The notes beneath the pieces are model-generated. The model saw only the letters and a program-made list of their open reading frames with translations. It was not told the origin of the DNA and searched no databases. This document shows positions 14,835-50,341 of a stretch of 59,242 bases of DNA, piece by piece. A program made the translations under genes and the position numbers. This DNA comes from an uncultured Bacteroidales bacterium. Its GTDB lineage: Bacteria; Bacteroidota; Bacteroidia; Bacteroidales; Bacteroidaceae. The stretch spans positions 1 through 59,242 of the forward strand of contig CACXLY010000006.1 of NCBI GenBank assembly GCA_902768605.1, read 5' to 3'. Each line of letters starts with the position of its first letter. The first letter of the stretch is position 1.

Positions 14835-15769
14835 AACGTCTGCCCACCCTCACTAACGCGCAGCGACGCGCCCTGCTCGTCATCGAGTGGGTGCTGCTCA
14901 TCGGCATCATCGGCTTTGCCGTCTGGAAGAAAGAAGACCCCTCTAAATCTCCCCTTAAAGGGGAGAATAAGACGCAGGAAGTCTCCCCTTTAAGGGGAGA
15001 TTTAGAAGGGTCTCTTCCTGCGGAGCCTTCCTTCGAGTCGTTCCCCTTCGACCCCAACACGGCAGACTCCACGACGCTGCTTCGCCTCGGCCTCTCCCCC
15101 TGGCAGGTGCGCAGCATCTATCGCTACCGGGCCAAGCACGGACGCTATCACAAGCCCGAGGACTTCATGCGTGTGCCCGGCATGACCAACGAGCAATGGG
15201 ACCGCCTGAGGCCTTACGTCCGCATCGCCACCGAGTTCCAGTACGTCGCCCCTTCTGCCTCGCCCGAGGAGGAAAGGCTTGAGGGCCTGCGCTCCCTCGC
15301 GTTGGAGATGGAGGATTCTGCCTATCAGGATTCCATTTCAAGAGGAGACACGGCGGTGCATTCCACTAAGCTGTCGCCCGGCCAGACCATCGACATCAAC
15401 AGGGCCGACACGACGCAGCTGAAGAAGATACCCGGCATCGCGTCGAAGCGCGCAGCACGCATCGTCGCCTACCGCAGGTCGCTCGGCGGCTTCGTCAGCG
15501 TCGAGCAGGCCATGGAGGCCATAGAGATGCCCGACTCCGTGCTGAAATACATGGCCCTCTCGCCCGTCGAGGTCACGAGGATAAACGTCAACAAGCTCTC
15601 CGTCCAGCAGTTGATGAAGCATCCGTATCTCAATTTCTATCAGGCCAAAGCCATCAACGAGCACCGCCGCAACAAGGGCGACCTGCACTCCTTCGACGAG
15701 CTCTCGCACCTCGAAGGCTTTCGCCCCACCGACCTCGACAGGCTCCGTCCCTACATTTCATTCGAGTAG
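14831..15769 (+). CDS. Membrane-anchored helix-hairpin-helix (ComEA-like) protein
   Basis: 312 residues. One membrane helix (about residues 17-33, LLVIEWVLLIGIIGFAVW) is followed by three helix-hairpin-helix modules: FDPNTADSTTLLRLGLSPWQ, IDINRADTTQLKKIPGIASKRA (the best match to the DNA-binding hairpin) and INVNKLSVQQLMKHPYLNF. ComEA-type proteins bind DNA in the periplasm during uptake; DprA, another transformation protein, is encoded at 37739. Residues 36-61 (DPSKSPLKGE ... SPLRGDLEGS) are a palindromic repeat inserted between membrane helix and first module. Starts inside the stop of the transporter gene. Confidence 0.85.
   Translation: MKRLPTLTNAQRRALLVIEWVLLIGIIGFAVWKKEDPSKSPLKGENKTQEVSPLRGDLEGSLPAEPSFESFPFDPNTADSTTLLRLGLSPWQVRSIYRYRAKHGRYHKPEDFMRVPGMTNEQWDRLRPYVRIATEFQYVAPSASPEEERLEGLRSLALEMEDSAYQDSISRGDTAVHSTKLSPGQTIDINRADTTQLKKIPGIASKRAARIVAYRRSLGGFVSVEQAMEAIEMPDSVLKYMALSPVEVTRINVNKLSVQQLMKHPYLNFYQAKAINEHRRNKGDLHSFDELSHLEGFRPTDLDRLRPYISFE
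14935..15013. repeat. Palindromic coding repeat, complete copy, in HhH gene
   Basis: Left arm 14935-14966 and right arm 14982-15013 (32 nt each) are inverted repeats with one mismatch, spaced by 15 nt. Each arm holds its own palindrome CTCCCCTTAAAGGGGAG. It is read through in frame as DPSKSPLKGE and SPLRGDLEGS. Confidence 0.92.
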
Positions 15770-15809
15770 CCACGGGGTTTTTCGTGTCTCGTCTCCCGAC
15801 TTTGCGTGT

Positions 15810-15891
15810 GTAGTTCATTGCTGCATGGCGATGCAGCAATTGCAACATCATGATAATTCAATTGCTGCATCGCCATGCAGCAATGAACTAC
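15810..15891. repeat. Perfect 33-bp inverted repeat with nested palindromes
   Basis: 15810-15842 and 15859-15891 are exact reverse complements around a 16-nt spacer. Each arm contains TTGCTGCAT-GGCG-ATGCAGCAA. It sits in the 350-bp spacer before the adhesin gene; apart from this and the promoter at 16036 nothing else is seen in that spacer. Confidence 0.92.
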
Positions 15892-16035
15892 CCTTGCGTC
15901 GAGGGGCGACGACCACTGCCGCTTCGGGCATCATATACTGCCTCAAGGATGCTGCGCGACTGCATGATATGCAGCTTTCTCTGTCCCTTCCTGCATTTTC
16001 TCGCAAATAATTGTATAAGTTTCAATTCTTTTTCG

Positions 16036-16043
16036 TAACTTTG
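16036..16043 (+). promoter_or_regulatory. -7 promoter motif TAACTTTG of the adhesin gene
   Basis: It lies about 78 nt upstream of ATG 16122 and downstream of the longest-ORF start at 16011, which rules that start out. Confidence 0.7.
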
Positions 16044-16121
16044 CAACGCAGAGTGTATTCCCGCGTCTCTTCGCGCGTACTATATATAATAATGTATTAT
16101 CAACTTTTAAACAATATGACT

Positions 16122-19100: not shown

Positions 19101-19811
19101 CCTGGTCCCATCGACCTTGTGCTTGACTGCAAGGGTAGCAACTCAGAGACCATCCAAGCCAACGACGGCGCTTGGGCGAACGTCACCATCAACAACCTCA
19201 CGCTCAAGAAGGACGGCAAGTGGCAAGCCGTCTGCCTGCCCTTCGACGTGGACGTCGAGAACAGCCCGCTGGCCGGAGCAGACGTCAGGACGCTCGAGTC
19301 GGTGACCGTCACGAACGCAGTCTGCACGCTCGACTGCCCGACACCCCAGACCACGATGGAAGCCAACAAACCGTATATCCTCAGGTGGGATGAAGGCGAG
19401 GACATCGTGAACCCAGTCTTCGAAGACGTTACCATCAAGTTTGTCAGGATGGACGACAGCGGCCAATGGTTGAAAATTGAGGGTGCAGGATATTTCGGTG
19501 CCCGCTATGATTATATCGGCATAATGCCCGATATGTTATATCTCGGCGATGAGAGTCCGATACTTACCAAAACAGATACGAGCATAGAGCTTCATGCCTT
19601 TGAAGGCTTCTTCTTTATCTATACCTCGATCCAAAGCGTGGCAAGCGTCTTCGTGCTGAACACGGGCTATGAGGACGAACTGATAACCGGCATTGCCGGC
19701 GTTAACGCTAACGCTGACTCTGACGCTATCTATAACCTTGCAGGCCAGCGCATCAGTAAGACGCAAAAGGGCGTCAACATCGTAGGCAGCAAGAAGATTC
19801 TGGTGAAGTAA
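16122..19811 (+). CDS. Large secreted adhesin with fibronectin III and choice-of-anchor-J domains
   Basis: 1229 residues from ATG 16122, directly before the signal peptide MRLKSLLFTLLMLACFSTAKA; ATG 16116 is equally possible. Two similar N-terminal beta modules carry YKYSITQQIYTANEI-type words. Near residue 420 a fibronectin type III domain follows (ATVTWSSEGSYWELQYK ... YRVRIR). Two cleaved-adhesin / choice-of-anchor-J domains come next, each beginning FF(E/D)DFE and containing ADNWLISPLVDLGG or ADNWLVTPQVNLGG, each followed by another fibronectin-like segment (TTKYEYKIVG, TTYELRITG). A VCLPFDVDVENSPL domain and a sorting-like tail (YNLAGQRISKTQKGVNIVG, SKKILVK) end the protein. Probable surface adhesin. 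Its TAA stop is part of the adjacent 9-bp repeat array. Confidence 0.85.
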   Translation: MRLKSLLFTLLMLACFSTAKAAHVYVGVEYGSTGDETRGYELPSFARYSVSRQIYTASEIGRSGFIKSISFCLRNMNYWNGARYVEAGTLQRKIDLYLKHTSATEFYCSDEEYNFRAGDMVYSGWCVYHEYQWITIEFDVPFFYNGVDNLMIGLDDNTGGNDFYLYSLVFPTTKSQAHTVSASSSINYVPFDIDINAPIPGDYNSRTYNFKLQLDIEMYDTDQLSSPLSYVGVGKEQVHDDKVPLSSLYKYSITQQIYTANEISSAGETKLIHSISLFNTGREKTRKIAVWFFPTEKSFFSGFDDWMETPSEGPLFEGEVTFYEDDWTLIPFSRPVLSNGRSNFILCVNDETGSYQYGGQTTFLSFEATQDQTMYMYSDHSEPYDPSAIKTYSGYYTNVKNRVAFNGEVNIPTTPRPTEIHVDALPTVATVTWSSEGSYWELQYKADSETEWHKLNATEKSCEITGLMPKTKYRVRIRNINNGASYWLSTEFTTLDNMPTDITKAPLAKSCTIRWTGYSDSYDVLYREASDDPSFFEDFEGGFAAKGWSVNTIGQARNDGQGWFTEDVTLRSTEEATYTNYSGSKCAVAESWASGVGGMEADNWLISPLVDLGGTLKFWQWTSDSYADSYEVMVTAREVINFTTVRPLSPGARGWSQVVADLSEFQGKQGFIAIHHKCTDKMWLFIDDFAIYPAEPWQKVTTTETEVTLTNLKPTTKYEYKIVGHQTGYEDVSTDIFAFTTGVWQPVIMNIDIVPDVTSAEVDWVGNSESYEVEYKEAGAASEPFFDDFENGLADKGWKVYTQGETTGGEGWFTGSILDMGVAELNHSGKNSAIAESWSKETNGLAADNWLVTPQVNLGGTLRFWQWIRGDYPDSFEVLLSTTGDAIEDFTTTLRPLGPGLNRWNEVVIDLSAYEGLQGYIAIHHKCTDMFWMAIDDFGIYPVEGWTKVATTECQVTLTDLQPETTYELRITGFSDGEAEIVSDIVSFTTEAVPGPIDLVLDCKGSNSETIQANDGAWANVTINNLTLKKDGKWQAVCLPFDVDVENSPLAGADVRTLESVTVTNAVCTLDCPTPQTTMEANKPYILRWDEGEDIVNPVFEDVTIKFVRMDDSGQWLKIEGAGYFGARYDYIGIMPDMLYLGDESPILTKTDTSIELHAFEGFFFIYTSIQSVASVFVLNTGYEDELITGIAGVNANADSDAIYNLAGQRISKTQKGVNIVGSKKILVK

Positions 19812-20061
19812 GGTCCCTAAGGTCTTTAAGGTCCCTAAGGTCCTTAAGGTCCCTAAGGTCTTTAAGGTCCCTAAGGTCTTTAGGGTCCCTAAGGTCTTTA
19901 AGGTCCCTAAGGTCTTTAAGGTCCCTAAGGTCTTTAAGGTCCCTAAGGTCTTTAAGGTCCCTAAGGTCCCTAAGGTCTTTAGGGTCCCTAAGGTCTTTAA
20001 GGTCCCTAAGGTCTTTAGGGTCCCTAAGGTCCTTAAGGTCTTTAAGGTCCTTAAAGTCCCT
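19810..20061. repeat. Tandem array, 28 units of 9 bp (AAGGTCCCT / AAGGTCTTT)
   Basis: Exactly 28 nine-bp units, mostly alternating AAGGTCCCT and AAGGTCTTT with AGGGTC and AAAGTC variants, start in the stop codon of the adhesin gene. A 185-codon ORF through it on the minus strand (GTLKTLGTLKTL) is only a consequence of the 9-bp period. The same unit occurs in frame in the neighbouring GH115 gene. Confidence 0.92.
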
Positions 20062-20070
20062 AAAGTCAAA

Positions 20071-20103
20071 AGGCCCACTCGTGCTCCGAGCATGAGTGGG
20101 CCT
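20071..20103. terminator. Bidirectional terminator between convergent genes
   Basis: AGGCCCACTC (20071-20080) pairs perfectly with GAGTGGGCCT (20094-20103), with TGCTC/GAGCA pairing inside. Short T runs follow on both strands. It serves the adhesin (plus) and GH115 (minus) genes. Confidence 0.75.
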
Positions 20104-20122
20104 AAGCTTTCTTTATACTACA

Positions 20123-23377: not shown

Positions 23378-23415
23378 GTTGTGTGTTGGTTTATGCCTTT
23401 ATGCGTTGTCACGTG

Positions 23416-23493: not shown

Positions 23494-23643
23494 ACGTGGT
23501 TCAAGGCGTGATGAGTACAAAAACATCACGTTGTCAGAGAACCAGCAACGTGATGTTAGATGTCCAGCAACGTGATGTTAGATGTCCAGCAACGTGATGT
23601 TAAAGAGTCAGCGACGTGTTGTTAGAAGTCCAGTAACACGTGG
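23494..23643. repeat. 22-bp-period array (CAACGTGATGTT core)
   Basis: Three near-identical units AGATGTCCAGCAACGTGATG plus TT and degenerate flanking units; ACGTG words start at 23548, 23570, 23592 and 23614. The first unit is inverted (AACATCACGTTG). It fills the spacer between GH115 and QueA. Confidence 0.85.
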
Positions 23644-23654: not shown

Positions 23655-25061
23655 TCAGGGAATGAGCATCGAGCTGTCGCCGTAGCTGAGGAAGCGGAAG
23701 TCGTGGGCGAGGGCGTAGTCATAGACGTCGTGCCAGCCCTCACCGATGAAGGCGCTGACCAGGAGGAGCAACGTGCTTTGCGGCTGGTGGAAGTTCGTTA
23801 TCATGCGGCGGACAATGTGGTACTTGTAGCCGGGCGCTATGATGATTTGCGTGCTGGCGTGGAGCACCTCCTCGCCGCGCTCGTCCATGTAGCGGAGTAG
23901 GGCAGTGAGCGCCTCCGTCGTCGAGAGTGAGTTGTCGTACTCATACGGCATCCACTGGGGAACGTGAAGGGGAGACCCACCCCAGCCCTCCCTTAAAGGG
24001 AGGGAGTTCTTTGCGCAGTAAGTCTCCCCTTTAAGGGGAGATTTAGAGGGGTCTACCAGCACTCCCATATAGTACAGGCTTTCGAGGGTACGGACGCTGG
24101 TCGTGCCGACGGCAATCGCCTCGCCGCCGTGGGCCAGGAGCCGCTCGATGGTATGGCGATGGACTGCAATGTGCTCGGTGTGCATGTCGTGCCCGCCGAT
24201 GTCCTCGCTCTTGACGGGTCGGAACGTGCCGGCGCCGACATGCAGCGTCACCTCTTCCCGCTCAATGCCGCGAGCATCGATGTCCTGGAGGACGCGCTTC
24301 GTGAAATGCAGCCCCGCCGTAGGAGCCGCCACCGAGCCCTTTATCTTCGAATAGACCGTCTGGTACGTCGTCTTGTCGCTCTCCTCAGTCTTGCGGTTGA
24401 GGTACGGCGGGATGGGAAGTTCGCCCACGGCGTCGATGACCTCGGCGAAAGAAAGGGACAGCCCCCCTCCAACCTCCCCCCGAGGAGGGAGGCTTTCAGG
24501 GTTCTCCTCCTCCTCAGTGCAGAGGGCCGACCATCGGAACTCAATGAGTTGGCTCGTGCCGTGTGTGCCCTTGCGCTCGGCAGTGATTTTGAATTTTGAA
24601 TTTTGAATTTTGAATTCCCGCGTCAGCTTCCCTTCCTTCCATTTCTTCGAGTTGCCAACGAGGCAATACCACGAGCAGGAACCCCTCCGGGCGAAGTTCT
24701 CCTGATACTCCACCGGGTCGGCAGGCTCCAAGAGGAATATTTCGATGAGAGCCCCCACCCCCATCCCCTCCCCCGAGGAGGAGGGGAGAGAGGGGTCAGA
24801 AAGCCTCCCTCCTCGGGGGGAGGTTGGAGGGGGGCTTTTCCTGAAATGTAGCCTCGCCTGGATGACTCGCGTGTTGTTGAAGACCATCAGGCTTCCCTCG
24901 GGCAGCAACGAAGGCAGGGAGCGGAACACCGTCTCGCTGATGCGTCCGCCTTCATAGACAAGCAGTTTGCTGCTGTCTCGTTCCGGCAGAGGAAACTTCG
25001 CGATGCGTTCTTCGGGCAAAGGATAGTCGTAGTCGCGTATCTGAATGTGTTTTGTGTCCAT
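23655..25061 (-). CDS. queA: S-adenosylmethionine:tRNA ribosyltransferase-isomerase with repeat insertions
   Basis: 468 residues from ATG 25061 (MDTKHIQIRDYDYPLPEERI); the upstream in-frame ATG lies before the promoter position. Family words: ERDSSKLLVY, LMVFNNTRVIQARL, APTAGLHFT and HVGAGTFRPVKSEDI, with MHTEH following; the C-terminus has NFHQPQSTLLLLVSAF. QueA transfers ribose from S-adenosylmethionine to preQ1 in tRNA, forming epoxyqueuosine. Usual length is about 350 residues; the excess consists largely of four in-frame repeat insertions (KSPPPTSPRGGRLSDPSLPS, FKIQNSKFKI, ESLPPRGEVGGG, DPSKSPLKGE ... SLPLREGWGGSP). The conserved blocks between them look intact. QueG, which acts next, is at 49397. 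Confidence 0.92.
   Translation of the reverse strand: MDTKHIQIRDYDYPLPEERIAKFPLPERDSSKLLVYEGGRISETVFRSLPSLLPEGSLMVFNNTRVIQARLHFRKSPPPTSPRGGRLSDPSLPSSSGEGMGVGALIEIFLLEPADPVEYQENFARRGSCSWYCLVGNSKKWKEGKLTREFKIQNSKFKITAERKGTHGTSQLIEFRWSALCTEEEENPESLPPRGEVGGGLSLSFAEVIDAVGELPIPPYLNRKTEESDKTTYQTVYSKIKGSVAAPTAGLHFTKRVLQDIDARGIEREEVTLHVGAGTFRPVKSEDIGGHDMHTEHIAVHRHTIERLLAHGGEAIAVGTTSVRTLESLYYMGVLVDPSKSPLKGETYCAKNSLPLREGWGGSPLHVPQWMPYEYDNSLSTTEALTALLRYMDERGEEVLHASTQIIIAPGYKYHIVRRMITNFHQPQSTLLLLVSAFIGEGWHDVYDYALAHDFRFLSYGDSSMLIP
23973..24054. repeat. Palindromic coding repeat in queA, copy 1
   Basis: A composite element: a CCTCCCTTAAAGGGAGGG arm and a CTCCCCTTTAAGGGGAG arm, bounded by AGACCC and GGGTCT. 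On the coding strand it reads DPSKSPLKGE, a short linker, then SLPLREGWGGS. Confidence 0.9.
24460..24497. repeat. GC-rich palindromic coding repeat in queA, half copy
   Basis: AGCCCCCCTCCAACC followed by CCCCCGAGGAGGGAGG; translated in frame on the minus strand as ESLPPRGEVGGGLS. The right arm of the copy at 33960 reads the same way. Confidence 0.88.
24585..24616. repeat. In-frame AATTTTG repeat in queA
   Basis: About four 7-bp units AATTTTG; translated on the minus strand as EFKIQNSKFKI. Confidence 0.85.
24750..24836. repeat. GC-rich palindromic coding repeat in queA, complete copy
   Basis: Two GC-rich arms (AGCCCCCACCCCCATCCCC ... and ... GGAGGTTGGAGGGGGGCT), each with an internal CCTCC/GGAGG palindrome, form an imperfect inverted pair. 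In frame: SPPPTSPRGGRLSDPSLPSS then SGEGMGVGAL. Confidence 0.9.
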
Positions 25062-25071
25062 AAAGCAGGCA

Positions 25072-25194
25072 CAAAAGTACAACAAAAACTGTAAAGAGGA
25101 AAGTGAAAAGGGGAAAAATATCTGCTTTCTTGCCTCAGAAGATAAATTCTTTAAACCTGAAACCTCAAACTTTGAACTTTATTTTGTATATTTG
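25072..25194. promoter_or_regulatory. Divergent promoters, queA and metallopeptidase
   Basis: Minus strand: TACTTTTG at 25079-25072, which leaves only a few untranslated bases before queA. Plus strand: TATATTTG at 25187-25194, about 36 nt before the metallopeptidase start. Confidence 0.65.
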
Positions 25195-27232: not shown

Positions 27233-29437
27233 TTATTTGATAAATACCTTTTTGCCATTGATGATATTTATTCCCTTTTGAGCCTTGTTCAGACGTTGAC
27301 CCGCAAGGTTGAAGATATTCTCGTCTTTTAAGGGAGAGTTAGAGAGGGTCTTGATGCTTGTCGCATCATCATCACTTTCATCATCAAGGATAACCTTCAG
27401 AGCCTTGACGCCAGTCACACTCGCTGTCGGCAGCTGCAAGTAAGCCTTGCCTGCTGCCAGCTCACCAGAAGTGGAGAGTGTGTAGAAGCCTACACCATGC
27501 GTGCCATTTGCAAGGATAAAGTTAGTTTTATCACCATCTGTGGGATAAATGGTGGTAGCTTTTGTCACGCCTTTCAGCAGATTGGAATAAGTCACGTCTG
27601 TCGTCGTTCGTGGGATTTTATAGCTACCCTCTGCCCCCATAATATAAAGTCCTTCGCCAGCAGGTACTTCTGTAACTTTTGTCAGCGTTAGGGTGTTTGT
27701 GGTAGAGTCAAAATCGCTGGCTACGTAGGCCTTAATAGATGCGACCCCAGAGAAGTTTAAAGCATAGAGAGAGCTGAATGTGGTAAAACCAGAGTTACCG
27801 ACATTAATAGTATTGATTTCTATAATTTCCTTAAAATCCTTCCAATACTCAGCCGCCTCGTAAATAGCCTTGCATCCAGAGGGTACATATAGCGAAATAT
27901 AATGTCGCTGGTAGAATGTGTTTTCGTTAATGGTTAATGGTGTATCCTTGTCTACCCTTACATCATGCAACCTTATACAGTTAGCGAAGGCATTATTTCC
28001 TATGGATGTTATTGTACTTGGGATGTTGATTGATAGTAAATTTTGACAGCCATCGAATGCACGATATCCAATACTTGTAACACCTTCAGGAATTGTTACG
28101 GAACGTAATCTTTGAAAAGAGTATAAAGCGTATTGACCAATGGAAGTTACCCCGTCTGGGATAACTACATCTGTTACCTCATTGCCATTAATATAAAGAT
28201 GATCTCCATAACGCAATGGATTTGAATCGAAATCTTCAAAATGAATACTACAAATGCTTTCTATATCAGTGAACTCCACATAATTTATATAACCCGTGAT
28301 GAGATTAAATGCACCTGTCGCAATGGATGTGATACTGGCAGGAATGTTGATGTATGCGAGACTTCTACAGCCATAGAACGCATTGCGACCAATGGATATA
28401 ACACCATCTGGAATTATTACCGATGTTAGTCCTCTACAATCTTTAAATGCATTGTCGGCAATAGATGTAAGTCCTGTAAAGTATTGTAGCTCGTCAAAAG
28501 AGATAATAGATGTGTATTCGAAAACATTTTCGATTGTTGTAACAGCCGCTGCTTCCGAAAGACTCAAGACACCATCTCCATTCGTGTCCCAGTGTTCCAA
28601 GCATATCGCTTCAACCCTTGCATCTGCAAAAGTGATATATTCAACTATTTCTTTCCAACCACCTGCAGCCTCATATGCAGACTTACTACCCATTGGTACA
28701 TACAAAGTGGCATTTGCACGATTAGGAAAAGAATATGCCGGAATTATAATCGGATTATTATTTTTAATTGTCACTGATGTTAGATTTGGACAATTATAAA
28801 ATGCCCAAGTACCAAAGCTGGTTATTGATCCAGATATAACGAGGGTTTCCAAGCCAGGATTATCCATAAAAGTATAAGCCGGCACTGAGGTAACATTATT
28901 CCCCAATGTTAAGGATGTAAATTTACAGTTACTGAAAGGATAATACACATCTTCATCGTCTTCATAGTATGGAATTTCTCGATCTATTATAAGTGCGCCC
29001 CTGTAATTACTAAAAGAACCTCTACGTATCCGAGTAAGATTATTACCTTGAATGGTAACGGAAGTTACAGAGCAATTTTCAAAAGAATTTTCCATAATAT
29101 CTACTACACGATAGGTCGTTCCGTTGTATGTTACTGTTTCTGGAATAACAATATCTCCGCTCATGTCCGAGGTGAAGTATACATTGTAAGGATTTCCCCA
29201 TATATCATTGTCATCTTCATCTTGGCCCAACCACTCATAATTAACATAATAATCATATCCATCAGGAACACTCCCTCCATTTTTTGTAGATATTAGAGAC
29301 TGAAATGTCACAATCGCAGTTGAATTCCAATCTTGTTTCAAATAATAAATTCCATTAGCCTTAAAATCGTAGGCCATCGCGTTGACGTAGATGCCAAACA
29401 GTGCCAGCAGGGTTAGAAATAATTGTTTTAGTTTCAT
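27233..29437 (-). CDS. BspA-like leucine-rich repeat surface protein
   Basis: 734 residues with a signal peptide (MKLKQLFLTLLALFGIYVNAMA). Repeats of the LRR_5/BspA type follow: ALYSFQRLRSVTIPEGVTSI, AFDGCQNLLSINIPSTITSI and others through about residue 560. A calcium-loop-like DTNGDGVLSLSEA (about 285) followed by ISFDELQYFTGLTSI is a combination common in Prevotella surface proteins. A final beta domain (FTTFSSLYALNFSGV ...) and a sorting-like tail (FNLAGQRLNKAQKGINIING, KKVFIK) close it. Just before the tail, NSPLKDEN is encoded by a fragment of the palindromic coding repeat (27325-27352). Markedly AT-rich. Probable adhesin; transcription likely passes through the structured RNA at 29495-29660. 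Confidence 0.88.
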   Translation of the reverse strand: MKLKQLFLTLLALFGIYVNAMAYDFKANGIYYLKQDWNSTAIVTFQSLISTKNGGSVPDGYDYYVNYEWLGQDEDDNDIWGNPYNVYFTSDMSGDIVIPETVTYNGTTYRVVDIMENSFENCSVTSVTIQGNNLTRIRRGSFSNYRGALIIDREIPYYEDDEDVYYPFSNCKFTSLTLGNNVTSVPAYTFMDNPGLETLVISGSITSFGTWAFYNCPNLTSVTIKNNNPIIIPAYSFPNRANATLYVPMGSKSAYEAAGGWKEIVEYITFADARVEAICLEHWDTNGDGVLSLSEAAAVTTIENVFEYTSIISFDELQYFTGLTSIADNAFKDCRGLTSVIIPDGVISIGRNAFYGCRSLAYINIPASITSIATGAFNLITGYINYVEFTDIESICSIHFEDFDSNPLRYGDHLYINGNEVTDVVIPDGVTSIGQYALYSFQRLRSVTIPEGVTSIGYRAFDGCQNLLSINIPSTITSIGNNAFANCIRLHDVRVDKDTPLTINENTFYQRHYISLYVPSGCKAIYEAAEYWKDFKEIIEINTINVGNSGFTTFSSLYALNFSGVASIKAYVASDFDSTTNTLTLTKVTEVPAGEGLYIMGAEGSYKIPRTTTDVTYSNLLKGVTKATTIYPTDGDKTNFILANGTHGVGFYTLSTSGELAAGKAYLQLPTASVTGVKALKVILDDESDDDATSIKTLSNSPLKDENIFNLAGQRLNKAQKGINIINGKKVFIK

Positions 29438-33728: not shown

Positions 33729-33760
33729 TTTGGTAATGTACGTGTTTCTTTGTACCTTTG
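33729..33760 (+). promoter_or_regulatory. Promoter of the DUF2027 gene
   Basis: TTTG (33729-33732) and TACCTTTG (33753-33760) with a 20-nt spacer: the full Bacteroidetes consensus. Its position shows that the true start is ATG 33784, not the upstream in-frame ATG at 33730. Confidence 0.8.
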
Positions 33761-33783
33761 CGGTGCAATACACAAACAAGACT

Positions 33784-34527
33784 ATGAAGATAGGCGATCA
33801 AGTGCGCTTTCTCTCCGAGGTGGGAGGGGGCAGAGTGAGTGGCTTCCAAGGGAAGAACATTGTCCTCGTGGAGGATGAGGACGGGTTTGAGATACCGATG
33901 CTCAAGCAAGATGTAGTAGTGGTTGGCAACGAGGAATACGACATCGGGAAGGTGAACACAGCCCCCTCCCCATCCCTCCCCCAGGGAGGAGGGAGTGAAG
34001 AAGCCGCGCAGGAAAGCATTCCTCCTCGGGGGAAGGTTTGGAAGGGGGCTCCTCTCGAGCGCAGGGAAGGCGAGCGGCTCAACCTCTACCTCTCTTTCTT
34101 GCCTGATGAGGTGAAGGAAATCTCCAGCACGGGCTTCGAGTCGTACCTCGTGAACGACAGCAACTACTACATGCAGGTCTCGCTGATGAGCGCGGAGGGA
34201 GCGAGCTGGCGACTGCGTTTCTCGGGCATCATAGAGCCTAACAGCAAACTTTTCGTCGAGGCTTTCGACCGCTCGCAGGTCAACGATTTGGAGCGCCTCT
34301 GCGTGCAAGCCATCGCCTGGAAGCAGGACAAACCGTTCTCGCTCAAGCCCGCCATAACAACAGAACTTCGCCTAAACCTGACGAAGTTCTATAAACTGCA
34401 CGTCTTCCACCCGAATGAGTTCTTCAATGAACCCAACTGGACGGAAGACGTTATCCGTGATGACAAGCCTGTCCGGAACGTCTTTGTGGATGCCGAACAG
34501 GTGAAAGAGGCAGTACTCAATTCATAA
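33784..34527 (+). CDS. DUF2027 protein, apparently truncated before its Smr domain
   Basis: 247 residues. MKIGDQVRFLSEVGGGRVSG and FQGKNIVLVEDEDGFEIPML form the N-terminal beta domain; the second domain (VKEISSTGFESYLVNDSNYY ... KFYKLHVFHPNEFF) is also typical. Relatives in Bacteroides, as I remember them, continue into a C-terminal Smr nuclease-like domain after a VKEALL-type word. Here the protein stops at VKEAVLNS, where LNS and the stop come from the AATTCAT repeat, and no Smr sequence follows. Residues 59-89 are a GC-rich palindromic coding repeat (APSPSLPQGGG ... IPPRGKVWKGAP) in the interdomain linker. Confidence 0.82.
   Translation: MKIGDQVRFLSEVGGGRVSGFQGKNIVLVEDEDGFEIPMLKQDVVVVGNEEYDIGKVNTAPSPSLPQGGGSEEAAQESIPPRGKVWKGAPLERREGERLNLYLSFLPDEVKEISSTGFESYLVNDSNYYMQVSLMSAEGASWRLRFSGIIEPNSKLFVEAFDRSQVNDLERLCVQAIAWKQDKPFSLKPAITTELRLNLTKFYKLHVFHPNEFFNEPNWTEDVIRDDKPVRNVFVDAEQVKEAVLNS
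33960..34050. repeat. GC-rich palindromic coding repeat in the DUF2027 gene
   Basis: Left arm AGCCCCCTCCCCATCC plus CTCCCCCAGGGAGGAG; right arm TCCTCCTCGGGGGAAGG to GGAAGGGGGCT. They form an imperfect inverted pair, in frame, encoding SPSLPQGGG and IPPRGKVWKGAP. Confidence 0.88.
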
Positions 34528-36930: not shown

Positions 36931-36966
36931 TTCTCCCCTCTCCTCGGAGAGGGGTCGGGGGTGAGG
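36931..36966. repeat. Intergenic copy of the GC-rich palindromic repeat
   Basis: TCTCCCCTCTCCTCGGAGAG followed by GGGTCGGGGGTGAGG, between the HIT gene and greA. It is the same class as the in-gene copies, flanked by TTTACGATTTAC short repeats. Confidence 0.8.
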
Positions 36967-36983
36967 CTGTCGAATCCCTTCAT

Positions 36984-37451
36984 TTAATCAAACGCGATGC
37001 TGACCACCTCGAGTTGGATGGTGCCCTGCGGCACTTTGATCTCGGCGATGTCGCCCACTTTCTTGCCGAGCAGTCCCTTGGCAATCGGGGTCTCCACACT
37101 TATCTTGCCGCTGCGGAGGTCGGCCTCCGTGGCGCTGACAATCGTGTACTTCATCGTCATCTTGTTTTTCACGTTGCGCAGTTCGACGGTAGAGAGGATC
37201 TGCACGGTACTGGTGTCGAGGTGCGTGGTGTCGATAATCTTAGCCTCGATAATTGTTTTCTTGAGCATGGCTATCTCAGTCTCGAGTTTGCCTTGCCATT
37301 CCTTAGCAGCGTCGTACTCGGCATTCTCCGACAGGTCTCCCTTGTCGCGGGCCTCTGCGATGGCAGCGCTTGCGGCGGGGCGGTCGATGCTTTCCATGTG
37401 CTGCAACTTTGCTACGAGCTCGTCGTAGCCTTTTTGTGTCATGTAAGCCAT
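36984..37451 (-). CDS. greA: Transcription elongation factor GreA
   Basis: 155 residues: an N-terminal coiled coil with the GreA signature (KGDLSENAEYDAAKEWQGKL), then a FKBP-like C-terminal domain ending in GTIQLEVVSIAFD. It rescues backtracked RNA polymerase by stimulating transcript cleavage. The leader is about 150 nt and contains a terminator-like hairpin (37541-37573). Confidence 0.95.
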   Translation of the reverse strand: MAYMTQKGYDELVAKLQHMESIDRPAASAAIAEARDKGDLSENAEYDAAKEWQGKLETEIAMLKKTIIEAKIIDTTHLDTSTVQILSTVELRNVKNKMTMKYTIVSATEADLRSGKISVETPIAKGLLGKKVGDIAEIKVPQGTIQLEVVSIAFD

Positions 37452-39515: not shown

Positions 39516-39530
39516 AATGTTATAAGTTCT

Positions 39531-39598
39531 TTGCTGCATCGCGACGAAGCAATTGCTGCATGGCGACTCAGCAATTGCTGCATGGCGATGCAGCAATC
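39531..39598. repeat. REP-like GCAGCAA palindrome cluster
   Basis: Three palindrome copies (TTGCTGCATCGCGACGAAGC, TTGCTGCATGGCGACTCAGC, TTGCTGCATGGCGATGCAGC) fill the gap between two minus-strand genes; the cluster starts at the stop codon of the DUF2851 gene. Confidence 0.88.
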
Positions 39599-40814
39599 AA
39601 TTCTTCTTCAAGTATTCGTATCCGAAACGGCATCGGAGGCAGTCCGTCCTGTCGCAGTATTGGCGTTTCAACTGTATGAGTGCCTGGCTGTCGGCAGCCG
39701 TGGAGACCTTCAGCCCGCATTCCTGCCACTGCCGCAGGATGTAGTTGTTCTCCGCGGGAAGCGTCTCCAGGAGCCGGATGGCACGCTGGCAGATGTCGTC
39801 GTTGCTGGTGTGGCGTCCGTAGGCAAAGAGCAGGGGCACCACCGTGTTGATGATGAGCAGGCGGCGGCTTGCTGCCGTCATTCCCTTCACGGCGAGGCAC
39901 GTCTGCAGCTCCTCCACGCTCTGCGCGCCCAGCAGACTGCTCATCTGCGCCCGTCCGCTGTGGTAGAGCTCCGCGATTTGCAGGATGCGGGCGGAGGGGA
40001 AATTGCTGGGGCGGGTCCGCAGGAAGCGCCAATCGGCCCGTTCCATCGCGTCGCCGAGGCTGAATTTGTGCTTCAGGAACGCATACTCCTGGCTGAGGAG
40101 CAGGACCTCCTGACTGCTTCGCAGACCCTCCACTTCGTCGATGAGGCCCGCCATCCCCAGGAAGAGCGCCTCGATCTGAAACAGGTCGTCGCGGTGTTTG
40201 CCGGCAGCCGAGAGGGGTATTCGCATGGCCCAGCGCTCGAAGGCATCGCCGTTGAGACCGAAGCCGAAACTGCGGCTCAGCGTGACGAACGTGGCACGCT
40301 CCCAGTCGCCCCCTGTCCGCTCGGCCCGTTCGGCCACTTTCTCCGACCTCTCCTTCAGCCTCTCCACGAGCAAGGCATCCATCCAAGGACGCACTTTTAT
40401 CGATGGAATCGAGGAAATTATGCGGTGGCAGCGCGGATAGTCCTCCGTTCGGCACAGCTCTTCGTAGCTCCGCCGGATGTGCTCCGGAATGTCGAGCCGG
40501 ACCTGCGGAAGCGTCTTCCCCTCCTGCGTCACGACCTCCGCGTCCACCTCTCCCACGACGTGCAGGATGACGCTGTTGTAGGCCGCATCGCTCTCGTGGC
40601 CGTGCCTGTACCAGTCCGACGAGCGGAGATGCACCTCCACATTGCCCGCCCAGACCGTCCCGTCCAGCCGAATCTTCGCATTGAAGAAGTCGGGGCCCTG
40701 GTCGTGATTGTGCAGACCGGGGTCGATGACCTCGACCGTCTGCCCCTCCGACGTTGTGAGCGGTTTCAGGGGCAATATCTTGTGTTTCCAGACGTAGTGG
40801 AGCAGGCGTTCCAT
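39597..40814 (-). CDS. DUF2851 family protein
   Basis: 405 residues. The N-terminus (MERLLHYVWKHKILPLKPLT) and the block DPGLHNHDQGPDFFNAKIRL, GNVEVHLRSSDWYRHGH are hallmarks of this Bacteroidetes-restricted family of unknown function. Full length for the family. Two cysteine pairs near the C-terminus (CDRTDCLRCRFGYEYL) suggest a small metal site. The stop TGA overlaps the ATTGATTGC end of the repeat. Confidence 0.88.
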   Translation of the reverse strand: MERLLHYVWKHKILPLKPLTTSEGQTVEVIDPGLHNHDQGPDFFNAKIRLDGTVWAGNVEVHLRSSDWYRHGHESDAAYNSVILHVVGEVDAEVVTQEGKTLPQVRLDIPEHIRRSYEELCRTEDYPRCHRIISSIPSIKVRPWMDALLVERLKERSEKVAERAERTGGDWERATFVTLSRSFGFGLNGDAFERWAMRIPLSAAGKHRDDLFQIEALFLGMAGLIDEVEGLRSSQEVLLLSQEYAFLKHKFSLGDAMERADWRFLRTRPSNFPSARILQIAELYHSGRAQMSSLLGAQSVEELQTCLAVKGMTAASRRLLIINTVVPLLFAYGRHTSNDDICQRAIRLLETLPAENNYILRQWQECGLKVSTAADSQALIQLKRQYCDRTDCLRCRFGYEYLKKN

Positions 40815-43119: not shown

Positions 43120-43135
43120 AGTATGCCCTGTGCCG

Positions 43136-43208
43136 CGAATTGCACGAATGGCACGAATTGGTTACGCCCTTGAAGGCAAAGAGTAATTCGTGCATTTCGT
43201 GCAATTTG
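43136..43208. repeat. Imperfect inverted repeat of GAATTGCAC units
   Basis: CGAATTGCACGAATGGCACG at the left is mirrored by CGTGCATTTCGTGCAATTTG at the right, in the 124-bp spacer between lepB and the WbqC-like gene. Confidence 0.8.
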
Positions 43209-43243
43209 TGGTTAAGTATCGAATAGTCGTTTGAGTTTGCTAA

Positions 43244-43801
43244 ATGGTTCTGCCTTGCTGTTATCTCGCCCCGGTTTCCCACTACAGCGCTTACTATCGT
43301 GCCGACGAGGTGCGGCTTGAGGTGTGCGACCACTTCGCGAAGCAAACCTTGCGCAACCGTTGCTGGATTGACAGCCCGAATGGAGCGCTCGCTCTCACCA
43401 TTCCCGTTGTGAAGACGGAGGGCAAGACCTTGATGCGCGACGTGCGCATCAGCGACCACGGCAACTGGCGGCATCAGCATTGGGTTGCCCTCGAGAGCAG
43501 CTACAGGCAGTCGCCTTTCTTTGAATATTACGCCGATGACTTCGCTCCTTTTTATCAAAAGAAGTGGGATTTCCTGGCCGATTTCAACGAGGAACTGATG
43601 ATGTTGGTTGCCTCGCTGCTCGATATTGAGAAGCCCGTAACGCGAACAGTTGCGTTTGAAAACTCCCTTCCTTTAAGGGAGGGCAGGGGAGGGTCTTCTC
43701 CCTACTACCAGATGTTTGCCTCGCGACACGGCTTCTTGCCCGACCTCAGCATCGTAGATTTGCTTTTTAACCTTGGACCGGAGGGCGTGTTATGGCTGTA
43801 A
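43244..43801 (+). CDS. WbqC-like family protein
   Basis: 185 residues: LPCCYLAPVSHYSAYYRADE, FAKQTLRNRCWIDSPNGALA and ESSYRQSPFFEYYADDFAPF are characteristic of the WbqC family (first found in O-antigen clusters, function not settled). Residues about 141-152 (SLPLREGRGGSS) come from a half copy of the palindromic coding repeat, in the same frame as in queA and queG. Overlaps the next gene by 10 bp. Confidence 0.85.
   Translation: MVLPCCYLAPVSHYSAYYRADEVRLEVCDHFAKQTLRNRCWIDSPNGALALTIPVVKTEGKTLMRDVRISDHGNWRHQHWVALESSYRQSPFFEYYADDFAPFYQKKWDFLADFNEELMMLVASLLDIEKPVTRTVAFENSLPLREGRGGSSPYYQMFASRHGFLPDLSIVDLLFNLGPEGVLWL
43661..43696. repeat. Palindromic coding repeat, half copy, in WbqC-like gene
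   Basis: AACTCCCTTCCTTTAAGGGA followed by GGGCAGGGGAGGGTCT; translated NSLPLREGRGGS. Confidence 0.88.
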
Positions 43802-45456
43802 CTGTTCATCCCCTGCCGGCTTCATCCCAAGGATTGCCTTTGCCCAAGCAGTTCACCTTTCCTTTCTGCTACGAGCCTCACCCGCTATGCATTGCCGCGG
43901 CTGACGAGGTGCGGCACTATATAAGTCAGCGCAAGGAGTGGTACGACGAGCTGCAACGTGGAAAGATGTTTGGAGTGCTCATAGTAGACCCCTCTAAATC
44001 TCCCCTTAAAGGGGAGACTTCTTATCCTGTATCCTCCCCCTCTAAGGGGGAGTTAGAGAGGGTCTCGCTTTCGTTCCTTGCAGCCTTCTCCGGCACGCTC
44101 GACGGCAAGACGCAGCACGAGTACTTCGTTCCGCCGGTTTTCGACTTGATGGCTCCGGGTTGCTATTTCCAAGAGGAAGAGCAGGTCATTAGCGACATCA
44201 ACCGTCGTATTGTGTCGCTCGAGCGTTCCCTAAGGCCGAGTCCATTGCGGGCAAAGATGGAGGAAGAGCTTGCCGCCTATAAGAGGCTGATGCAGCAAAG
44301 CAAGGCAGAGCGCGATGCCCAGCGTAAGTCTATATTTCCCGATGAAATGGGCGAAAATGAGCAAAGGTTTGTTCGAGAGAGCCAATTCCAAAAGGCGGAG
44401 TATCACAGGCTGAAGCAGGCTTGGGAGCATCGCGTCTTTGATGATGAGGCAACGCTGCGAGAGAGGCAAGACGAGATAAAAAGACTGCAGACGGAACGTC
44501 ATGAGCGCAGCATCGCCTTGCAGCAGTGGCTTTTCTGCCAGTTCACCTTCCTCAATGCCCGAGGCGAGGAGAAGTCGCTGCTCGAGCTGTTCGCTCCTGC
44601 CATTCCACCGTCCGGGGCAGGGGAGTGCTGCGCGCCGCGTTTGCTGCAGGCTGCTTACAAGGAGGGCTTGCAACCGCTTTGCATGGCCGAGTTCTGGGTG
44701 GGTGATTCGCCAAGGGACGAGGTGAGGCACGACGGGCATTACTATCCGGCCTGCCGCAGCAAGTGTCGTCCCATTCTGCGCCACATGCTTGAAGGGCTCG
44801 ACGTCGAACCCAATCCCTTGCTTGCCAATCAGGAGAAACTGCTCGCCCAATTGCACATTATATATAATAATAAGGAAATGGCCGTTGTCAGCAAGCCGGC
44901 AGGGATGCTTTCCGTGCCAGGCAAGGACGACCTGCCCAACGTGCAAGATGCAATAAAAAGCGCCATTCCATCGGCAAAAGGCCCGCTCATCGTGCATCGC
45001 CTCGACATGGATACAAGCGGCTTGATGCTCGTTGCGTTGACCGAGGCGAAGTACCACCAGCTTCAAGACCTCTTCCTGCATCGCCGTATCCACAAGGTCT
45101 ATCATGCCCTGCTCGAAAGAGAGATGCCCGTCGGACAGGAGGGCGACATCAACCTTCCCTTGCGTCCCGACATCGACGACCGTCCCCGGCAACTGGTGGA
45201 CCGAGAGCACGGCAAGCCTGCCGAGACGCATTACAAGGTGCTGGCCAACAAAGACGGGCATGCCCTGCTTGAGCTCCGACCGATAACAGGCCGCACGCAT
45301 CAACTCCGCGTCCACTGCGCCCACCCCCTCGGACTCGACAACCCCATCGTCGGCGACCGCCTTTATGGCAAGGCCGGAGAGAGGTTGATGCTCCACGCCT
45401 ATGCTATTACATTCGAAGACAAAACCTTCACTGATACTATGAATTGTGAATTATGA
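43792..45456 (+). CDS. RluA-family pseudouridine synthase with long N-terminal part
   Basis: 554 residues. The C-terminal half (from about 345) is the catalytic domain: VSKPAGMLSVPGKDDLPNVQ, and HRLDMDTSGLMLVAL with catalytic D405, followed by LRPITGRTHQLRVHCAHPLG. The N-terminal half contains a charged coiled coil (about 150-265). Residues 65-95 (DPSKSPLKGETSYPVSSPSK ...) are a palindromic coding repeat exactly 30 codons long. The last residues (TDTMNCEL) and stop come from an ATGAATTGTGAATTATGA repeat. It modifies uridines in rRNA or tRNA; target not inferable. Confidence 0.9.
   Translation: MAVTVHPLPASSQGLPLPKQFTFPFCYEPHPLCIAAADEVRHYISQRKEWYDELQRGKMFGVLIVDPSKSPLKGETSYPVSSPSKGELERVSLSFLAAFSGTLDGKTQHEYFVPPVFDLMAPGCYFQEEEQVISDINRRIVSLERSLRPSPLRAKMEEELAAYKRLMQQSKAERDAQRKSIFPDEMGENEQRFVRESQFQKAEYHRLKQAWEHRVFDDEATLRERQDEIKRLQTERHERSIALQQWLFCQFTFLNARGEEKSLLELFAPAIPPSGAGECCAPRLLQAAYKEGLQPLCMAEFWVGDSPRDEVRHDGHYYPACRSKCRPILRHMLEGLDVEPNPLLANQEKLLAQLHIIYNNKEMAVVSKPAGMLSVPGKDDLPNVQDAIKSAIPSAKGPLIVHRLDMDTSGLMLVALTEAKYHQLQDLFLHRRIHKVYHALLEREMPVGQEGDINLPLRPDIDDRPRQLVDREHGKPAETHYKVLANKDGHALLELRPITGRTHQLRVHCAHPLGLDNPIVGDRLYGKAGERLMLHAYAITFEDKTFTDTMNCEL
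43986..44075. repeat. Palindromic coding repeat, complete copy, in RluA-like gene
   Basis: 90 nt from AGACCCCTCTAAATCTCC to the matching GGGTCT end. The left arm is the CTCCCCTTAAAGGGGAG type, the right arm a CTCCCCCTCTAAGGGGGAG variant. Read DPSKSPLKGE and SPSKGELERVS. Confidence 0.92.
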
Positions 45457-45506
45457 AGCAAAGCTCGACGAATGTCAATTATGAATTGTGAATTATGAAT
45501 TATGAA
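45437..45506. repeat. ATGAATTGTGAATTATGAATT repeat supplying stop and start codons
   Basis: The repeat covers the 3' end of the RluA-like gene, the 38-bp spacer and the first codons (MNYEL) of the PHP gene. Confidence 0.85.
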
Positions 45507-46211: not shown

Positions 46212-46298
46212 AATCGCTGCCAACAAACAATATTGGCGCGAGTACAAGCAAATGCTTAAATTTCATGCGTAGTTGCCATTCTAAGGAAAGAATATAGC

Positions 46299-47102: not shown

Positions 47103-47137
47103 CATTAAATCTATTGTTTGAATGTTTGTTTCCGCTG

Positions 47138-47250
47138 CAAAATTACTCGTTTTTACACAAGCGGGCAAATAATTCTTGTTTCAAGTTGTTTCATGAAACG
47201 CATTGAAACAAACAAACAGCTCTCTGTTCCATTTTTTATTTGTATTTTTG
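47138..47250. promoter_or_regulatory. Divergent promoters, BspA-like gene and TPR/HTH gene
   Basis: Minus strand TAATTTTG at 47145-47138; plus strand TATTTTTG at 47243-47250, about 30 nt before the ATG at 47281. Confidence 0.65.
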
Positions 47251-47280
47251 CAGCAGAAATGACATATAAAGAAGTAAAAG

Positions 47281-48821: not shown

Positions 48822-48859
48822 CACGTTAAAAACATTTTGGAATTATTGGAATATTGACA

Positions 48860-48990
48860 TTACCTTTGTCATCGTCTTGTTTCATTTGTCTTTTTGCCAG
48901 AGATATACTACATAGTTGATTGCTGCATGGCGATGCAGCAATTGCTTTGTCGCCATGCAGCAATTGCTTTGTCGCCATGCAGCAACGAAC
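48860..48990. repeat. REP-like module, second copy
   Basis: Same order and orientation as 168-305: ATTGACATTACC ..., CATCGTCTTGTTTC, then TTGCTGCATGGCGATGCAGC palindromes. No gene is seen between 48822 and 49396. Confidence 0.9.
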
Positions 48991-49054
48991 CATATCTGTG
49001 GAATCGAACAGAATCTGCTGCCGCATCTTGCTACGCAGCAGCAGGATGGCGCTA

Positions 49055-49315
49055 TGTCAAGGCTTATGGGGGCTTGCCAAAAGTCTCGAAGAGACGACAG
49101 ACCACAGACGGGGGTGTTAACCCCCGGTAATAATGCGACGACAGAGAAAGTCCTGAAAGGACGACAGAGCCATAAGCAAGTTCTTATTAAACAAGTTATA
49201 TATTCTGTCGCCCCTTTGGGGCTTATTATTGTCAGGCTAATCTGTCCCGGGGGTTACACCCCCGTCTGTGTTCTTTCGCACCTTTGGTGCTTTTTCCCGG
49301 ACAGCAGTAAAAAAC
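49055..49315. repeat. MITE-like long imperfect inverted repeat
   Basis: The left half (AAAAGTCTCGAAGAGACGAC ... CAGACGGGGGTGTTAACCCC ... CCTGAAAGGACGACAGAG) is mirrored by the right half (CTGTCGCCCCTTTGGGGC ... CCGGGGGTTACACCCCCG ... CTTTCGCACCTTTGGTGC) around an AT-rich centre near 49170-49200. Copies or parts at 1-110, 355-490 and 58944-59242. No coding capacity. Confidence 0.85.
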
Positions 49316-49396
49316 GAATCCTTCTGATGGGAATTTTTGGACCGTCTGCAGTTCGGAGCAATCAACCCACGTGTCGCGGGGCAACTATGCTGCTTG

Positions 49397-50341
49397 TTAT
49401 TTCTTGTAAGACTTTAGCCAGCGGTCGATGTTGCGCTTGAGTCCATCGTATTTGGCACGCTTTACGGCAGACCCTTTGAAGAGCTTGCGGTATTGCTCTT
49501 CTGTGAGGTCTTGCCAGTCGTCGGGCGTCATCTTCAGAAGCGCCTCGGAGGGTTGGAAAGCTTGTTCTGCTGTGGGATGCGCCTCTTTGAATTGCGGTGT
49601 GGCCCTCAGGCAGCGGTCGCAGCCATAGAAAGTTGTCGAGAGGCGCAGATTGTCGGGCAAGGGTCCGCGATGCTCGATGGTCTGATAGCTGATGCATAGT
49701 CGGGCATCGAGTCCCTCGGGTGTAAGGGCGGGGCAAGACCCACCCTGACCCTCCCTTAAAGGGAGGGAAGAAGTCTCTCCTTTAAGGAGAGCTTTAGAGG
49801 CTTCTAAGGATTGGTCCAAGGGCTCGTCGTATTGGTCGGCTTCCTGCGTCAGGAAAAGCTCGCCGAGGAAAACCGTGGGGCCGTAGCCCGGCACGCTGAT
49901 GAAGCCGCTGCCCGGGGTGATGATGCCGATGCCGCTCCGCCAAGCCCAGTACCGCTCCAGGACGGGAGCCGTATCGACAAAGCATCGGCCTTCGAGTCCG
50001 CAAACCTGCATGAGTTGCTTCATCCGCTCCCGGAGGACGTCGTGGTAGTCGCGGCCCTGTGCATAAAGACTGATGGCGGGCTGGTGGTCCGCGGGCATGA
50101 AGTTCATGGCGAGGCTGACGATGGTGCGCACGCCGGGCACGAGGAGGCCGGGCTGCAAGCGCATCTCGACACCCCGGCGCATGTAGTCCATGTCGGCGCA
50201 CAGGCCGAGCTCCAGCCATCGGCGGTATCGGCTCGCAAAGGGCTCAGCCACGGGTTCCGCCTTTGCCAGTCCGCAAGCAACAAAGCCCAAGCGCAAGGCC
50301 TGGGCTTTGATGTGTTTGCTATTCAATGACGCCGAACTCAT
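49397..50341 (-). CDS. queG: QueG-like epoxyqueuosine reductase lacking most Fe-S cysteines
   Basis: 314 residues. The fold is recognisable: PGVRTIVSLAMNF, YAQGRDYHDVLRERM, VDTAPVLERYWAWRSGIG, FLGELFLTQEADQYDEPLD, CISYQTIEHRG, YGCDRC. QueG needs two [4Fe-4S] clusters, eight cysteines, plus cobalamin. Where the first CxxCxxCxxxCP motif is expected, residues 179-202 are a palindromic coding repeat (EASKALLKGETSSLPLREGQ) and only C203 remains. In the second motif C216, C241 and C244 are kept, but the last position is T248 (CDRCLRATPQ). Probably inactive or altered in its last queuosine step. The start overlaps the deacetylase gene by 23 bp. Confidence 0.85.
   Translation of the reverse strand: MSSASLNSKHIKAQALRLGFVACGLAKAEPVAEPFASRYRRWLELGLCADMDYMRRGVEMRLQPGLLVPGVRTIVSLAMNFMPADHQPAISLYAQGRDYHDVLRERMKQLMQVCGLEGRCFVDTAPVLERYWAWRSGIGIITPGSGFISVPGYGPTVFLGELFLTQEADQYDEPLDQSLEASKALLKGETSSLPLREGQGGSCPALTPEGLDARLCISYQTIEHRGPLPDNLRLSTTFYGCDRCLRATPQFKEAHPTAEQAFQPSEALLKMTPDDWQDLTEEQYRKLFKGSAVKRAKYDGLKRNIDRWLKSYKK
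49736..49805. repeat. Palindromic coding repeat in queG
   Basis: AGACCCACCCTGACCCTCCC ... TTTAAGGAGAGCTTTAGAGG; on the coding strand EASKALLKGETSS and SLPLREGQGGS, same frame as the other copies. Confidence 0.9.

Follow-up and report, generated by a model that had tools for sequence, protein, structure and literature searches.

Palindromic elements in protein genes of a Bacteroidales contig

The contig CACXLY010000006.1 of an uncultured Bacteroidales bacterium (assembly GCA_902768605.1), a stretch of 59,242 nt analysed at its full length and called the window below, carries short palindromic elements inside the genes for several unrelated proteins, among them queA and queG. The elements are open in the reading frame of their host genes, and at one and the same site in related genomes a repeat of another family, or no repeat, can stand in their place. 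Allowing up to 3 mismatches, the 17-nt palindrome CTCCCCTTAAAGGGGAG matches the window at 11 places; 100 shuffles gave 0.15 matches on average and never more than 3. A scan with four arm types (threshold at least 12 bits) called 13 arms, and Pfam matches agree with the host families of the window genes carrying elements. The features are given below; strand is that of the host gene, and ORF stands for open reading frame.

14935..15013, + strand: two-arm element A4 + A4, 79 nt, in the HhH-protein ORF 14831-15769 (+); reads DPSKSPLKGENKTQEVSPLRGDLEGS
23973..24054, - strand: two-arm element, A4 then B in gene direction, 82 nt, in loop 3 of the queA ORF 23655-25085 (-); reads DPSKSPLKGETYCAKNSLPLREGWGGS
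24460..24496, - strand: GC-rich (C-type) arm in queA loop 2; reads ESLPPRGEVGGGL
about 24753..24836 (low coordinate derived from loop length), - strand: GC-rich (C-type) pair, 84 nt, in queA loop 1; reads SPPPTSPRGGRLSDPSLPSSSGEGMGV
27318..27351, - strand: single arm of A5 type, degenerate, close to the 3' end of the BspA-like ORF 27233-29437 (-)
33960..34050, + strand: GC-rich (C-type) pair inside a 93-nt linker of the DUF2027 ORF 33730-34527 (+)
36931..36967 (ends approximate), no strand: GC-rich palindrome just outside ORF 36984-37451; sequence seen, below the arm threshold
43663..43696, + strand: single B arm in the WbqC-like ORF 43244-43801 (+); reads SLPLREGRGGS
43986..44065, + strand: two-arm element A4 + A5, 80 nt, in the RluA-like ORF 43792-45456 (+); reads DPSKSPLKGETSYPVSSPSKGELERVS
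49736..49805, - strand: two-arm element, degenerate A4 + B, 70 nt, in the queG ORF 49397-50341 (-)
55500..55540 (ends approximate), no strand: palindromic arm; weak match to the 17-mer, below the arm threshold

An initial annotation, made from the letters alone, had placed two-arm elements in five genes. The arm scan bears this out for the HhH, queA, RluA-like and queG genes, but the WbqC-like gene has one arm only. The fragment reported in the BspA-like gene is the degenerate arm at 27318-27351, and the GC-rich relatives reported in queA and the DUF2027 gene are the C-type arms at 24460-24496, about 24753-24836 and 33960-34050. The two intergenic copies, at 36931 and 55500, are present as sequences, but neither reaches the arm threshold. 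Translation of the HhH, queA, WbqC-like, RluA-like and queG frames returned the peptides that had been quoted (DPSKSPLKGE, SLPLREGxGGS / SPLRGDLEGS); EGWGGSPLHVPQWMPYEYDNSLSTTEALTALLR is the QueA peptide running across the element and its flank.

A full element consists of two head-to-head arms: AGACCC, a pyrimidine-rich stretch, the palindrome and a short spacer are followed by the mirror order, ending in GGGTCT. Each arm is about 34 nt long, and an in-frame element amounts to about 27 added amino acids. There are sister families, with arm types A4, A5, B, C (GC-rich), D and G as well as AT-rich ones, and the types combine within one element. Arms seem to be multiplied in 30-nt steps at three loci (L027, L035, L041). 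Short profiles of the AT-rich and other families gave few matches and were too weak for calling genome-wide repeats; we take these families to be recurrent because their peptides appear in different loops.

Elements are open in the frame of their host genes

The frame data set comprised the loci with arm matches, the loci with Y1_Tnp matches and the window, 625 kb together, and held 182 arms, that is 70 pairs and 42 single arms. Fifty-two pairs were called genic, 12 other and 6 edge (48 of the 64 unique sequences were genic); of the 42 single arms, 19 were called genic. Because the genic call itself needed an open body and was therefore circular, the frame test was redone from the flanks alone. 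This left 68 unique pairs, 3 of them at an edge, 25 with a flank that was not clearly coding and 40 with both flanks clear. One frame was kept, with no internal stop, in 39 of these 40; the exception, L062, seems to sit where a gene ends, and an ATG frame starts directly after it. Random use of reading frames was not seen. Of the single arms, 14 kept the frame without a stop and none was discordant; 26 were unclear and 2 lay at an edge. Both flanks were clear for 40 of 65 pairs, compared with 1868 of 4000 random 80-nt windows from the same loci; the elements do not avoid genes, and are genic at least as often as random windows.

Whole elements offer a single stop-free frame on the coding strand in 45 of the 52 genic pairs, and stop codons therefore explain most of the frame constancy. 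A second stop-free coding-strand frame exists in 7 of the 52; five of these are read in the common way and two in the other. The SPLKGE / SPLRGD / LPLREG reading is used by 49 of the 52 genic pairs, and the 3 pairs read in the second frame all lie at one orthologous site (L001, L023, L044). The GC-rich arm reads SPPPTSPRGG in queA and APSPSLPQGG in the DUF2027 gene, which are two different frames. The earlier statement that two of three frames are open in each direction is correct for a single A4 arm but not for whole elements, and the statement that one frame is always used applies to the A and B arms of the window but fails for those 3 pairs and for the GC-rich arm. Judging by their open frames, the repeat segments are probably translated as peptide.

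Repeat families are exchanged in QueA loops

We compared the window QueA with homologues, 120 of which were listed of 7999 found, and three loops vary among those listed. Families were labelled by regular expressions, except that P0014 was moved by hand from "other" to A5-A4 for the tree and pair counts. The loop 3 labels of the 120 were E 24, A-B 23, D 23, C 13, A5-A4 12, F 9, other 7, empty 5 and G 4; the loop holds at least seven repeat families (A-B, A5-A4, C, D, E, F, G) with common boundaries and often of equal length. Its modal length of 29 residues is found in 17 of 23 A-B, 10 of 13 C, 20 of 23 D and 17 of 24 E fillings, while F and G fillings are longer and A5-A4 fillings spread. At the DNA level, 102 nt lie between the same loop 3 anchors in the window (A-B), L178 (D), L109 (E) and L194 (A5-A4). 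Such shared lengths are partly expected, since A, B, C and D have one anatomy. Loop length was equal in 153 of 310 filled pairs of different families with cores within 6% (the pairs are not independent), and in 3 of 9 pairs of distinct filled contents inside clusters of 98% core identity.

Nearly identical proteins can differ in their fillings. With the loops cut out, P0058 and P0098 show 0 differences over 350 core positions, P0001 and P0004 show 2/350, and P0005 and P0010 show 1/364, each pair having different families; P0045 and P0064, with 2/350 core differences, are filled and empty, respectively. The empty P0064 (ASQGNEELHVPQ) and the AT-rich filling of P0045 (AWQMKNEELRMK...) may share NEEL, a possible microhomology. 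P0001 matches the window QueA (100% identity over 98%), and its near twin P0004 differs from it in loop 1 (27 vs 27 residues) and in loop 3 (30 vs 30) with lengths unchanged. These near-identical pairs are probably strains of one species, and the exchange is seen at the protein level only. The sequence data are draft and metagenome assemblies; where an allele was seen on a long contig or on more than one (P0004, 302 kb; P0002, 178 kb; P0098, six contigs), an assembly chimera is unlikely.

For a comparison of the loop DNA, 22 of 52 queA rows were chosen. Loop 3 of L110, L113 and L119 has 18 native nt (SQGKED or SQGQED), and the 19 filled versions measure 84 nt in 9 cases and 39 to 111 nt in the others, with no clear trace of native codons. 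These three queA genes, together with L140 and L141 at the RluA site, are the empty homologues that the initial annotation proposed to look for; in contrast, the distant L117, whose QueA is 65% identical, has a B-like arm in queA loop 3, so that the site is shared beyond one close group. QueA loops 1 and 3 lie outside the stretches aligned to solved QueA and loop 2 partly inside; the AlphaFold model of QueA (mean predicted local distance difference test score 37.3) was unusable. A further long repeat (CGTCGCTAACGCTCCCCAATCGCT type) occurs in queA loop 1 of L024 and L182 and in the WbqC region of L059.

Filled, empty and replaced sites in other genes

At the RluA site the window has 80 nt, and the relatives have fewer (five with 14 nt, two with 5 nt and one with 35 nt); L140 and L141 lack the element at this same site. 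The WbqC arm replaces native sequence that has equal length in L140, L141, L144 and L145, and the same site holds longer fillings in L142, L143 and L059 and a decayed arm in L008. L109 has native sequence in the 93-nt DUF2027 linker, and the window, at a flank identity of 94%, has repeat-derived sequence of the same length; the linker measures 93 nt in 5 of the 6 relatives read and 114 nt in one (L018 and L110, which gave no match, were excluded). Thus, at several sites a repeat stands instead of native sequence and is not added to it. We consider the AT-rich E filling of QueA, the DUF2027 linker and the WbqC arm to be the stronger, suggestive hints of length-preserving replacement.

Different families occupy the same site with flanks at least 80% identical. 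L042 and L025 carry one palindromic family and L013 another, 95 nt each, at one site with flanks 85-91% identical, and at another site an element stands in opposite orientations in L003/L020 and L011/L037/L038, in frame in all of them. Mixed fillings were also found at the RluA site (readable in 111 of the 120 homologues listed) and in the HhH linker (66 of the 120 listed). The proposal that such a repeat creates new protein segments says too little, as families are exchanged in the same loops, sometimes at unchanged length.

The queG element (ORF 49397-50341, -) lies approximately where the solved homologue 5d08 has the iron-sulphur stretch CGSCTKCLDACPTGA. This stretch is missing from the window gene about at the element position, and part of the second cysteine cluster seems to be missing from its product; queG of L139/L008 is also without the stretch and has no element.

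Carrier genomes

A search of 84,980 species genomes for an exact 27-nt arm returned 66 copies on 65 stretches, which belong to 14 genomes, all with titles naming Bacteroidaceae, Prevotellaceae or Bacteroidales. Rumen, omasum or reticulum samples are named in 7 of the 14 titles, and the carriers include four "RUG" isolates, which we take to be rumen genomes. Each carrier has 4 to 24 copies of a 35-nt arm at up to 3 mismatches, and at least 13 of the 14 fall among 139 genomes grouped as one genus. In a sample of 399 genomes from the family, 4 had the exact A 19-mer, and three of these 4 were already among the carriers; in a sample of 198 from the order, 1 had the exact B core (G005 only); exact patterns miss diverged relatives such as L117 with its B-like arm. 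Two exact arm patterns gave 0 matches in viral contigs. Literature searches, whose coverage left out most subscription journals, returned no title or abstract opening on such elements in Bacteroidales.

Relation to known palindromic repeats

In the available excerpts of PMC3767692 and PMC10969869, Rickettsia palindromic elements (RPEs) are 100-150 bp long and lie inside ORFs of Rickettsia and Wolbachia, in unrelated genes, with the frame unbroken, a conserved peptide and the same place in orthologues. The elements described here likewise lie inside ORFs with the frame kept, and orthologues are filled at the same place (queA and RluA in several genomes), often by another family. The parallel drawn to RPEs by the initial annotation is a good one: these are dispersed palindromes in unrelated genes, in frame, with relatives empty at the same sites. 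In contrast to RPEs, they measure 70-95 nt (65 of 70 pairs), occur in another phylum and have two REP-like arms (see below). The exact arm was confined to Bacteroidales titles, RPE sequences not being directly compared, and no counterpart to the family exchange in one loop at fixed boundaries was found in those excerpts.

Repetitive extragenic palindromes (REPs) are described in the excerpts of PMC3733652 as tagged palindromic units of 20-40 bp that form opposite-orientation dimers and have intragenic copies coding 20-30 residues; the CGTC families are without known transposase. Subclasses 2.4 and 2.6 of the REP transposases include Bacteroidetes among others, and 2.4 has REP insertions inside its own genes, according to the portion of PMC6006769 available. 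The present elements resemble REPs in unit size, in dimer orientation, in intragenic copies that encode peptide and, as in the CGTC families of those excerpts, in lacking a known transposase. Unlike REPs, they bear the tag AGAC/GTCT (AGACCC at the outer end, 51 sites) and not GTAG or CGTC, are mostly genic (52 of 70 pairs) and not mainly extragenic, and join different arm types in one dimer; unlike the GTAG families, they have no repeat-flanked gene for a REP-associated tyrosine transposase (RAYT) at the 23 Y1_Tnp loci. They share with miniature inverted-repeat transposable elements (MITEs) shortness, terminal inverted repeats and the lack of a gene of their own, and differ from these in the palindrome inside each arm and in that target duplication was not found. 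Since they act like RPEs and REPs but fail the defining features (tag, length, extragenic location, linked RAYT), we set them apart from both.

Origin and spread of the elements

We consider it likely, with a probability of roughly 0.8, that the elements are REP- or RPE-like non-autonomous dispersed repeats, which permissive loops tolerate in the form of peptide free of stops and which some process renews. The arms would be renewed by recurrent copying from other copies, and spread could proceed via single-stranded transposition or via ectopic conversion or microhomology-assisted replacement. Selection would remove copies that break frame or fold, stop-free copies would persist in permissive loops, and loops and linkers would then act as sinks where repeat DNA is kept in the form of peptide that the protein tolerates.

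In favour of this reading are the spread of the exact arm and its copies over all 14 carriers, the frame data, the exchange of families at shared sites and between nearly identical QueA cores, the number of family changes on the QueA tree, the arm identities at queA loop 3 and the want of conservation outside AGACCC. Several results weigh against it or limit the evidence for it. In a tree of 71 of the 120 QueA proteins (49 were dropped because the loop anchor was missing), 26 family changes were counted, compared with 39-46 in 100 label shuffles, a phylogenetic signal that partly reflects inheritance. The fewest changes after collapsing branches with support below 80, 90 and 95 were 22, 18 and 12, and we conclude that families are partly inherited and often changed. 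A count on all 120 proteins (52 changes) was not used because the loop columns had been imperfectly removed. The loss of native residues and the equal lengths are at odds with simple insertion. At 51 independent sites, target duplication of 2-9 nt was not above chance (2 nt at 2 sites, expected 1.84; 4 nt at 1, expected 0.24; 3 and 5-9 nt at 0). At these sites position +2 is G in 99% and positions +3 to +6 are A, C, C and C in 98% each, with a weak preference for A at -1 (64%) and otherwise essentially no conservation outside AGACCC; since the ends were placed by arm models, this sharpness and the conservation inside are partly by construction. A length-phase rule by arm type was followed by 46 of 52 genic and 14 of 18 other pairs, which is not significant (P 0.27).

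The arm identities require similar care. Among six genomes with A-B at queA loop 3, the left arm is 98.1% identical, a value biased because four of the six copies were found via the left arm, and the right arm, which is unbiased, is 95.4% identical; identity is 73.8% in the spacer, 85.9% in the left flank and 60.1% at fourfold-degenerate flank sites. High arm identity could mean renewal from other copies or a constraint on the DNA, and frequent family replacement favours renewal.

The search for a transposase also counts against the proposed spread. Y1_Tnp matches were found in 10 of the 14 carriers, and none in G004, G005, G009 and G014, although these drafts may be incomplete; G005 has 12 A arms and 10 B cores. 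At 23 loci scanned for hairpins, with ORFs listed for six, no Y1_Tnp gene was directly flanked by A arms. Only L067 and L085 have A arms near the match, and the L085 arm lies in a neighbouring gene. The term "peptide-neutral selfish repeat" used earlier is weakened in its selfish part, as no target duplication and no mobilising gene were found.

In several carriers, including L074 and L085, the Y1_Tnp-domain protein has about 400-470 aa. The gene upstream of it in L074 and L085 is presumably an hflX GTPase gene by its appearance, the L074 Y1_Tnp gene bears a short in-frame tandem repeat, and in L069 a palindrome of another family lies about 0.24 kb upstream of the Y1_Tnp gene. Looser hairpin matches near Y1_Tnp in L080, L085, L086 and L087 were taken as chance.

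The alternative that survives best is that the elements are REP dimers mobilised in trans by a RAYT, an HUH/Y1 transposase, through single-stranded intermediates. The REP-like arm anatomy, the head-to-head dimers, the lack of target duplication and the Y1_Tnp matches in most carriers are as this would predict, and intragenic REPs coding 20-30 residues are known (excerpts of PMC3733652). We nevertheless lean against it, given the AGAC/GTCT tag, the genic position of most pairs, the want of a directly flanked Y1_Tnp gene and the four carriers with no match.

Another way to explain the same boundaries across fillings and the nearly identical cores is that ordinary homologous recombination within the host gene swaps loop alleles between strains or species, the repeats themselves not moving. 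However, the peptide families of one QueA loop are met again in other QueA loops and in RluA and HhH homologues, and identical arms occur in many different genes of one genome; the repeats themselves must therefore spread, and we find this explanation doubtful. Equal lengths could also result from selection, if the loops need a set length and a hydrophilic make-up. Several families share modal loop lengths, and the DUF2027 linker keeps its 93 nt in the window and in most relatives, but the residues between anchors also number 14-68, 46-96 and 18-59 in the three QueA loops, and a structural requirement of this kind seems somewhat unlikely as the explanation. We propose only tentatively that a process overwrites loops and linkers with repeat-derived DNA at set length and boundaries, exchanging families on a strain time scale, so that an intragenomic store of cassettes would rewrite the loops of housekeeping proteins. 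Short-patch double illegitimate recombination is a known process; a literature search for it gave nothing.

The elements could also be classical MITEs, non-autonomous DNA transposons whose terminal inverted repeats are the arms; a DDE transposase would mobilise them, and the genes would do no more than tolerate them. The two inverted arms of about 34 nt, the short spacer and the defined ends agree with this, but it is improbable in view of the chance level of target duplication, the native sequence lost at several sites and the AT-rich fillings that share the same site. That the arms are DNA-level functional sites under selection, in genes by chance, is highly improbable: their nucleotides at queA loop 3 are conserved beyond coding need, but there are merely 4 to 24 A arms per carrier and other families often replace them.

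Rickettsia and Wolbachia are the main sources of in-frame palindromic repeats in the available excerpts of the literature, and several other species contribute REP cases. They are now found in Bacteroidales, in genes such as queA and the RluA-like gene, and evolve fast enough to separate nearly identical proteins. Direct tests can now ask how a dispersed repeat turns into protein sequence, whether the host uses it or only tolerates it, and how short DNA comes to replace coding sequence instead of interrupting it. It is also a reason for caution, as proteins of this kind may differ in a loop for reasons other than ordinary divergence.

Other repeats in the window

Another palindromic family (ATTGCTGCATGGCGATGCAGCAAT type, about 76 nt) has four copies, at 231-306, 15812-15887, 39525-39600 and 48914-48989. 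A repeat of about 200 nt, containing CCCGGGGGTT...ACCCCCGTCTGT stretches, lies at 49062-49294 and 59010-59242 (93% alike), with a part also at 1-89. There is a tandem array with 9-nt steps (CCCTAAGGTCTTTAAGGTC) at 19755-20121, and tandem 22-nt units of differing sequence were seen at 58735-58949, 652-761, 10666-10730 and 23510-23641.

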